Of a DNA stretch of 59,438 nt, positions 4,227 to 13,604 are shown piece after piece. The stretch covers positions 1-59,438 of the forward strand of contig CALXNU010000005.1 of assembly GCA_944389835.1 (NCBI GenBank). Reading direction: 5' to 3'. This stretch comes from an uncultured Succinivibrionaceae bacterium. GTDB lineage: Bacteria > Pseudomonadota > Gammaproteobacteria > Enterobacterales > Succinivibrionaceae. Positions within the stretch are counted from its first letter, which is position 1, and the number at the start of each line of letters is the position of its first letter. Made by a program: the position numbers and the translations under genes. Under the pieces are notes generated by a model. It saw only the letters and a program-made list of their open reading frames with translations, did no database searches and was not told the origin of the DNA.

Positions 4227-4793
4227 CTATTCCTTGCGATTAGTAAATTTAAAGGGATTTTGGCGTTTTATTTTATCTTTAACCTCCTCAAAACGCTTTA
4301 AAGCCTCCTGAGCCTTATCTTTTTCTGTGTCTTCTTGGTTTGTCTCTTGCAGAGGATCAGCACCATACTGATTTTCACCTGCGGTACCAGGCTTTTGCAT
4401 CAAAAAGAGAAAGGCCAAAAAGAAAAAGGCAAAGCCTAAGGCTGCATAAAAGCAAGCCTCCACAATTTTTTCATCTTGTAAGCGCAAGGCTAAATCGCCA
4501 AAGACCACAATTAAAATGGCCAAAAGAAGTGGCATTAAGATGATCGCCCCTTTTAGGTTTAGATCATGTAAACGGCGCACCCCGACACAAACTAATGGGC
4601 ACAGTAGGATAATAAAACTTAGTGCAAAGATAAGATCGCCTACGATTGGAATAAAGCGACTTATAGCAAAGATTAAACTTTGGGTAATTACAAAAAAGAG
4701 GGCAAAAGACCAAAATTCAAAACGCGAGGCACGCCCTGAAATGCGGTAAAAGCGCTCTTTTAGGCATAAGAGGATACTGTCTTTAAACTGCAT
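4227..4793 (-). CDS. DUF805 family inner-membrane protein, 188 aa
   Basis: The N-terminal part matches the DUF805 pattern: a short amphipathic start ending in RISGRASRFEFW, then helices with VGVRRLHDLNLKG between them. Four hydrophobic segments are visible up to about residue 132. The C-terminal 50 residues are charged (QETNQEDTEKDKAQ and onward), probably cytoplasmic, and include the family's tail motif GENQYGADP. The function of the family is unknown. The gene stands alone, convergent with the xanthine permease, and its start lies just downstream of the terminator of the GH13 gene. Confidence 0.85.
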   Translation of the reverse strand: MQFKDSILLCLKERFYRISGRASRFEFWSFALFFVITQSLIFAISRFIPIVGDLIFALSFIILLCPLVCVGVRRLHDLNLKGAIILMPLLLAILIVVFGDLALRLQDEKIVEACFYAALGFAFFFLAFLFLMQKPGTAGENQYGADPLQETNQEDTEKDKAQEALKRFEEVKDKIKRQNPFKFTNRKE

Positions 4794-4887: not shown

Positions 4888-6948
4888 TTAGGCTTTAGCT
4901 TGATTGTTTACAATCACCGTGGAGCGGGCGGGGATGGTTAAAGTTTTGCCTTGGGTTAACTCTTTGATAAATTTTTCTTGGAACTCATCTGAACTCATAG
5001 TTAAACCAAAGCTGTAAACCTTTAAATCCTCACGGGCTAAAAGCTCATATAAAGCCTCTAAGCCTTCACCATGATCGGTGCGGCGAACATTACGTCCGGA
5101 AAGTGGAATTAACAAAGACTCACCTGTATCTTCACTATCATCTTGGCCTTCAAGATCGGTTGGAAGATATAAGGCCGCTAATAGCGGTAAGAGCATCGAT
5201 CCTTGATCTATATTTATGGCCTGTCTTGCCACATTGACTAAGACTAAGGAGAAGCGATTGTTATAGAGGCGAATAAAGCCAAAGTGCGCACCACCTGAGG
5301 TAATAAAGACTTGTGAGCCATAGGTTAAAGCCTCATTAGAGCGTCTTATCGCGGCAAGTTCATGTAAAGCATTTTGGATCTTTGCAGAATAGGGGCTTAC
5401 ATGATGATCGCGCATGGCCTCAAAAGGAAGTGGGGATCTTGGCTGAATTTCGTATTGATTAATAGCATCGCCCAACTCATCGCCTTGATAGATACAAGGT
5501 ATGCCTCTCCAGGTATATAAAGTGGCTAAGGCTGCTAAATAAAGTGATTTCTCACCGCCTATGATGCTATAAAAGCGCGGGAGATCATGATTGTCTAATT
5601 GATTGATAAGACAAATTTTAACCTGCTGTGCCATACCCACTGAATAATTTTCACAGGTGCGACGCAAATCTTCACCAGTATACGGGGTAGGATCACCGGT
5701 TAAATTAACCCCACCAAAGAAAGCGCGAATAGGACTTAAAAAGCCAGTGTAATTAATGGCACCGTCTAAATTATTATCGGTATTTAGAGCATAGCGGCCA
5801 TCTGAGGGGAAGTCACCAATTAATAAGGTATCCTCGCGCACCGATCTTGCCTGCTCGCACATTTGCTTTAAGCGTCTTACATTATTTAAAGAAGTACCCT
5901 CATCACCTACTTGTGAGGCGGCATCAATACACCAACCATCAATACCATAAGGGACTCTTAAATACTTTTTAATAACGCTATTGTGCCCTTTATACATGCT
6001 ATGGCGCACAGCTTTTGAGCCATAGTTTAATTTAGGATTAGTGGGGATATTGCGATAGTAATAGGCATCATCATTGCCTTTGAAGCTATAAAAATCCCGA
6101 TAGGGTGAATCCTTGTGATGGCGTGCCCCCTTACCGGTACGCTCTTGTCTGTCAAACCAGGGGTGATTATCTCCGGTATGATTAAAAGGTGCATTTAAAA
6201 TCAAGCGCATCTCATAACTAAAGGAGTTCATGCGCAGACGCTTTAGCGCACCATTGCCTCCAAAGTGCGAGTCAATGACATCATAGTCTTCGACATCATA
6301 CTTATTAGGTGAGGTGGCTTTGAAAATTGGGGTGAGATATATACCATCAAAGCCCATGCCACGGATATAAGGGAGCATGTTGGAAATACCATCAAGATCA
6401 CCCCCACAATGCACTTCATCTAAATCCTTATATTCAAAGGAGTCATTGTGAATTGGGGTGTCTGCTGCATAGTGAGTGGCATCAATGGTGAAATAGCCTT
6501 TAGAGCTTGCAAATCTATCGGGGAAGATTTGATATAAAATCAAATCTTTAACCCAAGATGGGTGCACATCATTTAGTTCAAAGGCAAAGCAGTGTTGCAG
6601 TAAAGGCGGCTCACGTGACATACCAAGGGAGCTGTACCAGACCACATCAATGGTTTCTTGCTTGTCATTTAAAAGGGCAATCTTAAAGCTATAGCGCTGT
6701 AAGTTTGCACCTTCATCTAAAGGAATTTGCGCCACAAAACGGTGAATTCCAGCTTTAGATCCGGTATAGAGCATATCAACTCGCACCGGCTCATTTTGCG
6801 GGAAAGCCACAAGCTTGGCGCTTAAACGTTTAGGACTTGCACCGCGTACAAAAAGCACTGTGAACTTATGATTGTCACCTGGTGCTGTACAGGTGTGAAA
6901 GCATTGAAACGGAAGGTTGGTCCTCGGTGATGAAGTGTTTTGCCGCAT
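4888..6948 (-). CDS. GH13 maltodextrin-glucosidase-like protein with altered active site, 686 aa
   Basis: Architecture follows MalZ/neopullulanase: an N-terminal beta-sandwich domain (about residues 1-130), the GH13 barrel starting at ILYQIFPDRF, and a C-terminal beta domain. Region IV is normal (LDNHD, H454 and D455) and the nucleophile aspartate is present (D342 in DGWCIDAA). Three otherwise near-invariant positions differ: region I has Asn252 where Asp is expected (LNAPFNHTG), region II has Cys340 in place of the invariant Arg, and region III has Asp379 in place of the general-acid Glu (LIGDF). The protein may be a weak enzyme, a binding protein or a decaying gene. The frame is intact over its whole length. 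It is co-transcribed with pepD (12-base gap) and starts at an ATG with a GGAT site. Confidence 0.85.
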   Translation of the reverse strand: MRQNTSSPRTNLPFQCFHTCTAPGDNHKFTVLFVRGASPKRLSAKLVAFPQNEPVRVDMLYTGSKAGIHRFVAQIPLDEGANLQRYSFKIALLNDKQETIDVVWYSSLGMSREPPLLQHCFAFELNDVHPSWVKDLILYQIFPDRFASSKGYFTIDATHYAADTPIHNDSFEYKDLDEVHCGGDLDGISNMLPYIRGMGFDGIYLTPIFKATSPNKYDVEDYDVIDSHFGGNGALKRLRMNSFSYEMRLILNAPFNHTGDNHPWFDRQERTGKGARHHKDSPYRDFYSFKGNDDAYYYRNIPTNPKLNYGSKAVRHSMYKGHNSVIKKYLRVPYGIDGWCIDAASQVGDEGTSLNNVRRLKQMCEQARSVREDTLLIGDFPSDGRYALNTDNNLDGAINYTGFLSPIRAFFGGVNLTGDPTPYTGEDLRRTCENYSVGMAQQVKICLINQLDNHDLPRFYSIIGGEKSLYLAALATLYTWRGIPCIYQGDELGDAINQYEIQPRSPLPFEAMRDHHVSPYSAKIQNALHELAAIRRSNEALTYGSQVFITSGGAHFGFIRLYNNRFSLVLVNVARQAINIDQGSMLLPLLAALYLPTDLEGQDDSEDTGESLLIPLSGRNVRRTDHGEGLEALYELLAREDLKVYSFGLTMSSDEFQEKFIKELTQGKTLTIPARSTVIVNNQAKA

Positions 6949-6960
6949 ACTTATCCTGCC

Positions 6961-8427
6961 TTATTTTAGCTCTTTTAATGTTTCTCTTACCGCTTCAAAA
7001 ACGTGTAAGACTCCTTTTACGTCCACTCTTTCATCCGGGGAGTGGGGATAATCTATCGTAGCACCAATAGAGACAAGTTGTAATCTTGAAGGAGCTTTTT
7101 TCACAAAGAAGCCACACTCCAAGCCTGCGTGCAAGACGGTGACGATAAGTTTTTCACCGGTAATCTGCTGCCAGTGCTTACTTAAAGTATTAATTAAGTG
7201 ATTAGACGCTGGGGATTGCCAAGCACCGTGTTCACTTTCAACTTTAAAGCTAAAGCTCTCACCTAAAGCTTTAACTTGTGGGAGGGAAGTTTCTTTTGCT
7301 ACGACGTCTTTAAGCTCATTTTCATCTAAAGATCTTGCCATTAAACAAAGCTCAAGTAAGCCTTGCTTAAAGGAGGCCACGCCTAAATTGCAAGAGGTTT
7401 GCACAATATTAGGATCAACTTTAGACCAAGAGTGTGGACCTAGGATTAAAGCGTCAATTAACTTTAAGACTTTTAAAGTTTGAGCGTCGTCAATGAAGGT
7501 TAAAGCCTCAGATCCTGCACTTATTTCAAGGCGCATCTTAGGATCTGTTACTTGAAACTTTTGTCTTAGGCTTTCAAAGTTTAAAAGTAAGTCTTGTTTA
7601 AACTCATTAAGTTGTGAGGATTTAATAGCTAGGGTTACACAGCAATTTGGTGCAATGGAGTTTCGAGCTTGACCGCCTTGTAGCTCACCTAAATAAAGAT
7701 CATAGTCTTTTTTAGAGGCTAAAAGTAGACGTGCTAAGCTTACAATGGCGTTTGCATGTCCTTTGTGAATATCGGTACCGCTGTGACCGCCTTTAAGATC
7801 TAAAAGATTAAGCTTTAAAGCACTAAAACCCTCAGGTAAGGTTACAGGATTTCCCTTATAGTGCATCACAATGTCACAAGATCCCGCGCAACCTACATAA
7901 AGACGGCCGTTTTCCTCAGAGTCTAGATTGATTAGATAATCGGCATCTAAATGTTCACCACTTAAGCCTAAAGCACCTTTCATGGTGGTTTCTTCTTCAA
8001 CGGTGAAAATGGCAGTTAAAGGACCGTGCTCTAAACTCTCATCTTCCAAAAGTGCCAAGCTTGTTGCAATACCAATACCATCGTCAGCACCTAAGGTAGT
8101 ACCTTTAGCGTGCACAAAGCCATCATCGCCCAAATATGGCTCAATAGGATCGGTTAAAAAGTTATGAGTGCTCTGAACGTCTTTTACCGGCACCATATCA
8201 AGGTGGGCTTGTAAAATAACTTTGGGGGCATTTTCATAACCTAATGTAGGTCCCTTTTTAATAATGACGTTACCCACTTCATCGCTATAAGTCTCAAGAC
8301 CCTTACTTTTTGCATAATCTATAAGGTAGGTTGCAAGTTTTTCTTCATGCCCTGAAGGATGAGGGAAAGTGCAAATCTTAGAGAAATGTTGCCAAATAAC
8401 TTTAGGCTCTAAATTTTCAATACTCAT
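6961..8427 (-). CDS. pepD: Aminoacyl-histidine dipeptidase (peptidase D), 488 aa
   Basis: Cytosolic M20C metallopeptidase cleaving Xaa-His and other dipeptides. Metal ligands and catalytic residues are visible: QAHLDMVP (H75 and D77), GADDGIG, and VEEETTM with the catalytic and bridging glutamates. The chosen start is the ATG at 8427, giving MSIENLEPKVIWQHF, which lines up with the E. coli PepD beginning. An in-frame TTG three codons upstream has no better site. Length matches E. coli PepD (485 aa). It is the first gene of an operon with the GH13-like gene. A TATAAT at 8480-8475 on the minus strand is a candidate -10. Confidence 0.93.
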   Translation of the reverse strand: MSIENLEPKVIWQHFSKICTFPHPSGHEEKLATYLIDYAKSKGLETYSDEVGNVIIKKGPTLGYENAPKVILQAHLDMVPVKDVQSTHNFLTDPIEPYLGDDGFVHAKGTTLGADDGIGIATSLALLEDESLEHGPLTAIFTVEEETTMKGALGLSGEHLDADYLINLDSEENGRLYVGCAGSCDIVMHYKGNPVTLPEGFSALKLNLLDLKGGHSGTDIHKGHANAIVSLARLLLASKKDYDLYLGELQGGQARNSIAPNCCVTLAIKSSQLNEFKQDLLLNFESLRQKFQVTDPKMRLEISAGSEALTFIDDAQTLKVLKLIDALILGPHSWSKVDPNIVQTSCNLGVASFKQGLLELCLMARSLDENELKDVVAKETSLPQVKALGESFSFKVESEHGAWQSPASNHLINTLSKHWQQITGEKLIVTVLHAGLECGFFVKKAPSRLQLVSIGATIDYPHSPDERVDVKGVLHVFEAVRETLKELK

Positions 8428-8832
8428 AAATTTCAAATCTTACTTTTTAAGCTAATACAACAAAAATCAGGTCAATTATAATACTTGTGTCAAAGGCGCT
8501 AAAGTCTCTTGAGACTAAAAAGCTTTTTAGGTGAAAGGGGCTAAATTAGGACAAAAAAGAATACGCTAAGCTTTAGGGTGGGAGAGCCCCTGCCTTTTAA
8601 AAAGTTTAAGCTTTTTCTTATCAAGTTGTGATAGAGTATTTAGGATTTAAGATAGAGTTTTTTGTAAAAAAGCAAAACTTTCTTAAAAATTGGTCGTCAT
8701 ATTAAATATAGTTGAAGGTGTGCCAAATAATTTTGAGTTTTTTATATGTTTTGTTGGAGAGTTTCTTGCAAAGCTTAAAAGACTCAAGCATAATTCTAGA
8801 AATTTTTTATTTTACTTTTTAAGGATGGTTTT
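8428..8832. other. Divergent intergenic region pepD / lipoprotein gene
   Basis: 405 bases without a credible gene. It holds the pepD -10 candidate (8480-8475), a perfect 14-base palindrome AGTCTCTTGAGACT at 8503-8516 immediately followed by the palindrome AAAAAGCTTTTT (8517-8528), and a long-range pairing of AGGGGCT near 8536 with AGCCCCT near 8588. The short frame at 8690-8875 overlaps the lipoprotein start and lacks a ribosome site. No function can be assigned. Confidence 0.5.
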
Positions 8833-9315
8833 ATGCTTAAGTGGTTTAAAAGCTTTTTTTCAGGCAAAGCCCTAAGCTTGTTGCTTTTACCTCTAGCGTT
8901 TGTTTTAGCATCGTGTACTGCGTATAAGGATGATTACACCGGTACCTGGATAGGTCTTGATGAGTCAGGACAAAATTATATTGTCTATGAATATATGTTT
9001 ACGGATGTGGCAACTCCAGGTAATGAGAATGCACTTTCAGTACGCGTGATTAGAAAATCCTATGAGTTCAATCCTGAGAAAACCATTTTAAGCTGGACTG
9101 AAACCATTCCTCATTATTTCCCTTGTGTTTATGATGAGGATACCGGAATTGTCTCTACACCTTTTGGCCCAATTGAATTTGAGGTTAAATCCGGCTCTTT
9201 AATTTACAATAATATTCATTTTACTAAGAAAGCTAAAAATACTGAGCTTAAGCTTAAGTATGTGGCACGTGATCATTTAAAGACTTTGTATCCTGAAATT
9301 CCAATTAATGATTAA
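8833..9315 (+). CDS. Putative lipoprotein, 160 aa
   Basis: I do not recognise a family with certainty. The N-terminus (MLKWFKSFF then LSLLLLPLAFVLASC) is a lipoprotein signal with lipobox LASC, so Cys28 would be lipidated. The next residue after the Cys is Thr, which favours sorting to the outer membrane. The mature part of about 130 residues is polar, predicted mostly beta, and opens with DDYTGTWIGLDESGQ, reminiscent of small lipocalin-like folds. AAGGA lies 10 bases before the ATG. A second small lipoprotein at 49093 has a comparable layout. The gene stands alone between its own leader and a strong terminator. Confidence 0.8.
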   Translation: MLKWFKSFFSGKALSLLLLPLAFVLASCTAYKDDYTGTWIGLDESGQNYIVYEYMFTDVATPGNENALSVRVIRKSYEFNPEKTILSWTETIPHYFPCVYDEDTGIVSTPFGPIEFEVKSGSLIYNNIHFTKKAKNTELKLKYVARDHLKTLYPEIPIND

Positions 9316-12815: not shown

Positions 12816-13604
12816 TTAGTCGAATAAAGCTGAGATACAACCGCTTACAGAATCGGCTACATTTGAGGCTAAATCACTTACGGAATCAAAGGCTTCACTG
12901 GCAGCGCCCGTGACGGAATCAATCGCATCACTTAAAGTGTCCTTTACCTCGTCGTGGGATAAGAGTGCAGACACGCCCACCGTTGCGGCAACACCAGCTA
13001 CTACTGGGATAGCAACAGAGGCTAAGCCTGCGCTTGCAACAGCACCACCTAAAGCTCCTACGGTGGTGGCAGTGGCTTTGGCACCTACTGCAGCACCACC
13101 CACTGTGCTTGCAGCACTGACAGCTCTAACCGCTGTAAAAGCAGCAGATCCTGCACGCGCGGCGGTGGTCGCATGGCGAATGGTTAAAGCTGTGGCAGTA
13201 GCTAAGGCTGCAACGGTAATGGTAGCTTCACGTACCTGATAGCTTTTGGATTGGCCTGTTACGCACCAGTTGGCAAAATGCTCGCAGTTGTTAAAGATCA
13301 GGCTGTAATTATCTTCCCCGATCCTACTTCGTGCACGATCAACAATCTCTTGGGTGGAAAATTGGGCGTCATCGTGTTCTAGCACCGTCACCTTATCTCC
13401 ATCTGCAAACTTTTTCCAGCTACAAATGGTGACACCTTTATCGCGCAAGTAGGCCACGACCTGACCATTTCCGATGTAGATGCCGTGATGTTGGTAGCCT
13501 ATACGGTGGGCCACGACGTGCATGCCAGCCTTAAGCCCATCAACAGAGGCTCCCTCAGAGGTGCCAAGTAGATCTGAAATCGTTGTAAGCGCAGTAGAAA
13601 TCAT
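12816..13604 (-). CDS. LRAT-domain (NlpC/P60-like) protein with Ala/Gly-rich tail, 262 aa
   Basis: Residues about 20-125 match the LRAT / H-rev107 acyltransferase-protease fold: the histidine box YQHHGIYIGNG (H39/H40) and the cysteine motif NNCEHFANWC (Cys107 as nucleophile). Such domains are circularly permuted papain-like folds that move acyl groups or cleave peptides. Residues about 128-215 are a long Ala/Gly/Val-rich hydrophobic stretch, and the end is acidic and Ser-rich. No signal peptide is present. The gene is more GC-rich than its surroundings and is flanked by 827 and 294 non-coding bases, which hints at acquisition. Substrate and role are unknown. The start ATG has AAGATAAG ahead of it. 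Confidence 0.8.
   Translation of the reverse strand: MISTALTTISDLLGTSEGASVDGLKAGMHVVAHRIGYQHHGIYIGNGQVVAYLRDKGVTICSWKKFADGDKVTVLEHDDAQFSTQEIVDRARSRIGEDNYSLIFNNCEHFANWCVTGQSKSYQVREATITVAALATATALTIRHATTAARAGSAAFTAVRAVSAASTVGGAAVGAKATATTVGALGGAVASAGLASVAIPVVAGVAATVGVSALLSHDEVKDTLSDAIDSVTGAASEAFDSVSDLASNVADSVSGCISALFD

Follow-up and report, generated by a model that had tools for sequence, protein, structure and literature searches.

A MalZ-like GH13 protein with a dismantled active site, encoded beside pepD in Succinivibrionaceae, is probably a conserved pseudoenzyme

The gene at positions 4888..6948 of the window, a stretch of 59,438 nucleotides from an uncultured Succinivibrionaceae bacterium, raises the question why bacteria of the gut and rumen would keep a glucosidase-like protein with a ruined cutting site. 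Initially, it had been annotated as encoding a GH13 protein that lacks three hallmark active-site residues, lies in an operon with pepD and is either a maltodextrin-binding pseudoenzyme or an enzyme with a changed mechanism. The coordinates are right and the frame is intact over 686 codons as claimed; the strand, which the initial annotation left unstated, is minus, where the gene forms an open ATG frame, and the plus strand across 4888-6948 contains stops throughout. The encoded protein, which we call pseudo-MalZ, matched PF00128 with 177.6 bits (E 6.9e-52, cut-off 22) and E. coli MalZ (5bn7) in phmmer with E 6.7e-101. The MalZ equivalog NF008051 was its best NCBIfam match, but the 430.9 bits obtained are under the curated cut-off of 568 bits, a score above which was found in 0 of 56 Succinivibrionaceae genomes. 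An AF2 model of pseudo-MalZ had a pLDDT of 89.2 and a pTM of 0.90, and the structural comparison with MalZ that had been proposed as a check gave VIA Z scores of 45.5-49.9 to Apg and MalZ (571-579 residues, 32-33% identity, ranks 1-9), predicting that the fold is kept. Foldseek matched Apg and MalZ to the model along nearly the whole chain, and E. coli MalZ and the acarbose hydrolase Apg are the closest solved relatives. Homology, together with the predicted (beta/alpha)8 barrel with domain C, places pseudo-MalZ in GH13, close to the MalZ subfamily, which we take to be GH13_21.

The active site of the window protein departs from this relationship. A script identified N252, C340, D342 and D379, which pair with D246, R334, D336 and E373 of MalZ both in the phmmer alignment to 5bn7 and in a MAFFT alignment to K-12 MalZ. 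These alignments bear out the annotated replacement of the region-I Asp by Asn252 (6193..6195, on the minus strand like all codons given here), of the region-II Arg by Cys340 (5929..5931) and of the general-acid Glu by Asp379 (5812..5814), and equally the retention of the nucleophile Asp342 (5923..5925) and of His454-Asp455 (5584..5589), the HD of the region-IV NHD motif, which pair with H447 and D448 of MalZ and are canonical in the window protein. The catalytic Asp, Glu and Asp of GH13 regions II, III and IV are thereby represented by D342, D379, which is not Glu, and D455.

Close orthologues of pseudo-MalZ were found in 30 of 56 Succinivibrionaceae genomes. They span seven genera and occur in 30 of the 31 genomes of those genera, the sole genome without one (G071) being 69% complete. 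Contig ends cut the copies of G079, which lacks the first 15 residues, and of G072, which has nothing past residue 329; the other 28 are complete. All family counts given below refer to 29 rows, the window protein and 28 orthologues with 57-76% identity to it. Left out of these counts were L001, which equals the window, L032-L035, which are the same matches as L036, L037, L039 and L004, and L050, the G072 copy cut after residue 329; L002 and L024 were additionally left out of the tree. Succinatimonas hippei YIT 12066 (L035) is among the carriers. No MalZ homologue was detected at E 1e-50 in 20 genomes of the other six Succinivibrionaceae genera, and a scan of genome contigs for relatives, which reaches close relatives only, returned four loci, all from Succinivibrionaceae. 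When 274 genomes of the wider class were searched for the MalZ family, with at most four candidates per genome scored among the rows listed, the window's own genome alone gave a match at E 1e-80.

The loss of active-site residues extends through this family. Neither the region-I Asp nor the region-II Arg is present in any of the 29 rows: position 252 is occupied by N, S, C, H, Q or A and position 340 by C, V or I. At the general-acid position 379, ten rows have D, eight Q, five H, three N and one each E, S and K. His454 and Asp455 are each present in 7/29 rows, the nucleophile position 342 is Asp in 25 and A or T in four, and the region-I His (H257) is retained in 23. No row contains more than four of the seven canonical residues, a maximum reached by the window protein and L008, so that the canonical orthologues sought as a sign of sequence error or local decay were not found in this set. 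As a control, 20 canonical MalZ- or neopullulanase-like GH13 paralogues from the same bacterial family (20 of 21 such matches, presumed active from their sequences) all retain 7/7. Among 68 columns conserved in these paralogues, MalZ, L020 and L022, mean entropy in the pseudo-MalZ family was 1.81 for the seven active-site columns versus 0.47 for the other 61 (permutation p 1.1e-4), and 37 of the 61 non-catalytic columns versus none of the seven active-site columns are retained in 26 or more of the 29 rows. Ranked by entropy among all 686 columns, 454 and 455 reach the 98th percentile, 379 the 90th, 252 the 77th, 340 the 62nd, 257 the 52nd and 342 the 45th. Judged from the alignment, active-site loss is general, yet some columns appear constrained, with four of the seven between the 45th and 77th percentiles.

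A decaying gene or a sequence error might likewise leave many canonical residues missing, but the frame is open from end to end in 28 genomes, and the identities given above extend across seven genera. As the selection check suggested for the orthologues, we determined NG86 dN/dS, which was 0.014-0.017 in three close g8 pairs and 0.039-0.243 in seven other pairs; these NG86 values, chiefly those of the three close pairs, indicate that pseudo-MalZ is under strong purifying selection. The dN/dS of pseudo-MalZ was below that of PepD in each of the ten pairs for which dS was defined (11 were tried, dS being undefined for the window versus L003). Pseudo-MalZ also exceeded PepD in identity in 325 of 325 pairs among 26 genomes, with medians of 61.8 vs 44.1% (the PepD row of L038 in this comparison is a fragment). 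Because the orthologues share both the active-site loss and the purifying selection, sequence error and local decay are ruled out, and we grant them a negligible probability. An enzyme homologue whose catalytic residues are gone and whose gene is kept by selection would be a pseudoenzyme, and of the two possibilities in the initial annotation it is this one that is well supported by the family-wide loss, by the drift of most active-site columns and by the strong purifying selection on the rest; judged from its residues, pseudo-MalZ probably does not catalyse hydrolysis.

The second possibility was an enzyme whose mechanism had changed; such a protein, or one active on another substrate, would use Asp342 together with other residues. 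Asp342 is indeed common in the family, and 78 positions that are invariant in the 29 rows differ from or are missing in MalZ, among them C16, H119, C120 and H180. There is also a precedent in BmaN1, which is reported to be active despite an odd catalytic triad (PMC5347038). However, the general acid, the region-II Arg and the transition-state Asp have no conserved replacement, positions 454 and 455 are highly variable, and Asp342 is missing from four orthologues (L004, L007, L009 and L010) that are complete and share 67-71% identity with the window protein. Since conserved replacement residues are lacking, a changed mechanism has little support, and we regard it as very improbable.

A protein that does not cut may still bind maltodextrin or glycogen, the former as the initial annotation had proposed, and act as a sensor or assist the glycogen enzymes. 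Such a role would fit the presence of two GlgX, GlgB and MalQ as intracellular alpha-glucan enzymes in the window's own genome, the predicted integrity of the MalZ fold and the retention of 37 of the 61 non-catalytic canonical columns, and plant isoamylase 2 (ISA2) would provide a precedent (PMC12510319). Against it, most active-site residues are lost or drifting, and further columns conserved in the canonical proteins either vary (H215 is kept in 12/29 rows and Y217 in 14/29) or are replaced family-wide (Y488 by Q in 28/29, W509 by F in 27/29), the sugar-facing role of each being putative. The GH13 residues that fix the glucose in subsite -1 are an established set, and their loss or variation in pseudo-MalZ argues against maltodextrin binding in the old pocket. 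MalQ is present in 55 of 56 genomes, including genera without pseudo-MalZ, and its presence thus does not track that of pseudo-MalZ. Overall, we consider retained glucan binding rather unlikely; a surface glucan site or another glucan-related role may still exist. The two GlgX-type debranching enzymes (L053, L054; G000 C60 and C38) both score above the TIGR02100 cut-off.

Two family-specific motifs point in another direction. The N-terminal motif MRQNTSSPRTNLPFQCFH (codons 1-18, 6895..6948, minus strand) is near-invariant and occurs neither in MalZ nor in the divergent homologues of genus g5 described below, and a near-invariant LLIPLSGRNVRRTDHGEG-type loop in domain C (codons 611-630, 5059..5118, minus strand) is likewise missing from MalZ. 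In the family, the former reads MRQNTSSPRxxLPFQCFH and the latter LLIPLSGRNVRR, with the loop consensus LLIPLSGRNVRRxD. The core of each is predicted to be unfolded: in the AF2 model, residues 1-10 and 612-624, 23 in total, have a pLDDT <50, which may partly be explained by seven distant alignment rows that lack both motifs. Invariant positions make up 15 of these 23 residues versus 138 of 663 elsewhere (Fisher p 8.5e-6). The synonymous sites of the N-terminal motif codons vary freely in 28 rows, indicating that selection acts on the peptide. Stretches that are conserved but unstructured tend to bind something.

Our preferred explanation, which we hold to be probable but by no means secure, is that pseudo-MalZ is a GH13 pseudoenzyme with a docking or regulatory function. 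It would descend from a maltodextrin glucosidase (MalZ) whose gene probably lay behind pepD even then and whose catalytic residues disappeared early within one lineage of the Succinivibrionaceae, the folded, non-catalytic protein being retained afterwards. The MalZ barrel may then serve as a rigid platform from which the two flexible motifs bind a conserved partner. The frequent retention of D342 (25/29) and H257 (23/29) and the four of seven canonical residues in the window protein would speak against this docking role. Neither a read-through fusion model with PepD nor a profile search for MalT yielded a binding partner. MalT was rejected as a general partner, since NF003420 found no MalT at E 1e-30 in the 56 family genomes and detected the E. 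coli control. The residues C16, H119, C120 and H180 are invariant and specific to the family, and C20 (25/29) and C181 (27/29) are nearly so; the four invariant residues could possibly form a metal or redox site.

The upstream neighbour of pseudo-MalZ is pepD (6961..8436, minus strand), which encodes a Xaa-His or cytosol non-specific dipeptidase of the M20 family and is the first gene of a conserved two-gene unit. Its product scored 451 bits with TIGR01893, over the cut-off, and matched 3mru with E 4.8e-96, and the motif His, Asp and Glu, presumably the metal and catalytic residues, are invariant in 26 rows. In the window, pepD lies 12 nt upstream of the pseudo-MalZ gene on the same strand, and at 29 of 30 loci it is found directly upstream in the same orientation (21/21 contigs, five more, and L039, L045 and L050); at the thirtieth (L049), the contig begins inside the pseudo-MalZ gene. 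The 26 measured gaps are 2-55 nt long and contain no other gene. What holds of the annotated operon with pepD in nearly every orthologue is therefore two neighbouring genes on one strand with little space between them, and the operon itself is putative. USP is encoded further upstream in 17 of 21 contigs and MurJ in 15 of 21, with genes inserted between these and pepD, and the downstream side of pseudo-MalZ changes among contigs. The recurrence of USP and MurJ suggests that shared descent explains part of the linkage to pepD. Downstream of pseudo-MalZ in the window, a gene for a DUF805 membrane protein (4227-4793) lies on the same minus strand and is absent from the other 20 contigs examined. 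On the other side of pepD, a lipoprotein-like small ORF (8833-9315, plus strand, 160 aa, no Pfam match) is found in 9 of 21 contigs, and also occurs close to pepD in three genomes of g2 that have no pseudo-MalZ. The window further encodes an LRAT-domain protein of 262 aa (PF04970, 1.1e-22; 12816-13604, minus strand) in a bacterial genome.

As a special case of the docking role, pseudo-MalZ might serve PepD as a dedicated partner or regulator, with the two proteins produced together and forming a complex. The adjacency at 29 loci with gaps that never contain an insertion, unlike the interval between pepD and USP, would be expected in this case, and the order of pepD and a GH13 gene recurs in two of four g5 genomes. 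On the other hand, the linkage may in part be plain shared descent, PepD evolves much faster than pseudo-MalZ, and the reading frame of pepD appears disrupted in G076 and G078. PepD is present in 52 of 56 Succinivibrionaceae genomes and in all 14 genera, and at nine pepD loci in genomes where no MalZ homologue reaches E 1e-50, pepD is never followed by a GH13 gene (0/9; at L086 the contig ends 194 bases past the gene). PepD and pseudo-MalZ were modelled as a read-through fusion with 11 in-frame paired and 15 + 15 unpaired rows, using a monomer network and a short linker. With this shallow pairing, the model reached a pTM of 0.57, the larger body's share being 0.58, and showed no confident interface with PepD; by our estimate, a pTM of about 0.57 is to be expected for two unrelated bodies of this size. 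The GH13 half had lower confidence than pseudo-MalZ modelled by itself, which weakens the test, and both motif cores stayed at pLDDT <50. Taken together, we think it quite unlikely that PepD is the dedicated partner. The broken appearance of pepD in G076 (L097 2977-4245) and G078 (L045 2592-3922) consists of two-piece tblastn matches and short open frames, the pseudo-MalZ gene behind each is intact, and the cause may be assembly error or real decay.

Returning to the proposed docking or regulatory protein, the genus g5 bears on when a non-catalytic role may have arisen. Four of five g5 genomes contain a divergent MalZ homologue with about 30% identity (L017, L018, L019 and L023), in which the region-I Asp and the Glu are kept in 4/4 copies and the nucleophile is G or R in 4/4. 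L017 retains 6/7 active-site residues and, judged by its nucleophile position, is presumably inactive. The g5 copies are under purifying selection as well, dN/dS being 0.07-0.27 wherever dS was defined (four of six pairs). The divergent GH13 gene directly follows pepD in G005 and G034; in G025 the two genes are on different contigs, away from contig ends, and in G029 the contigs end. In the tree, g5 groups with the main clade at a support of 90/81, flagged for long branches, and owing to these long branches the kinship rests equally on the pepD neighbourhood in two of the four genomes. None of the losses is shared as a fixed one by g5 and the main clade, which suggests two separate inactivations. 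In a more far-reaching version, which we consider speculative and not likely, pseudo-MalZ would be a core and possibly essential regulatory hub of one Succinivibrionaceae lineage, in which the two motifs clamp a conserved cellular machine and C16, H119, C120 and H180 form a metal or redox site. The g5 homologue, behind pepD in two genomes, would in this version have been inactivated separately and by another residue, and the non-catalytic role would be older than the catalytic loss.

The retention of such a protein suggests a different job that does not involve cutting, and the apparently dead protein is better conserved than its enzymatic neighbour PepD; there would also have been two separate inactivations. 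Canonical and presumably dead versions occur together in ten genomes of the canonical control set, which thus offer a natural case for comparing them. Annotation by best match would probably label pseudo-MalZ genes as maltodextrin glucosidase, and predictions of starch and glycogen use for gut and rumen Succinivibrionaceae could therefore err at this point. To our knowledge, non-catalytic GH13 proteins are known from animals (4F2hc, rBAT) and plants (ISA2). Among the open-access literature matches listed, as far as their accessible parts show, there was no report on the pseudo-MalZ family itself, and none on a bacterial non-catalytic GH13 protein kept across genera. PMC5347038 mentions a small bacterial group whose catalytic positions are irregular. 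The BmaN1-type alpha-amylases described in the same source are bacterial GH13 proteins with aberrant catalytic residues that are common to their group, whereas the replacements in pseudo-MalZ drift. The ectodomains of the SLC3 heavy chains 4F2hc and rBAT have the GH13 fold, glucosidase activity has not been shown for them and they act via partner binding, 4F2hc lacking all three catalytic residues, according to PMC8537225. These are vertebrate membrane proteins with a transmembrane helix, whereas pseudo-MalZ is a bacterial protein of the MalZ branch encoded beside a dipeptidase gene. ISA2, described as a GH13 pseudoenzyme in PMC12510319, has its paralogue ISA1 as partner, whereas a search for a second MalZ-like protein in the window's own genome found none. 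Like E. coli MalZ and Apg from Klebsiella grimontii (PDB 9izo, 9ixw), pseudo-MalZ has their predicted fold over the whole chain and no signal peptide obvious by eye; unlike them, it has a dismantled active site, an added N-terminal motif and domain-C loop, and a score that misses the NF008051 cut-off. GH13 pseudoenzymes are already a known kind, to which this bacterial family would be the new addition.
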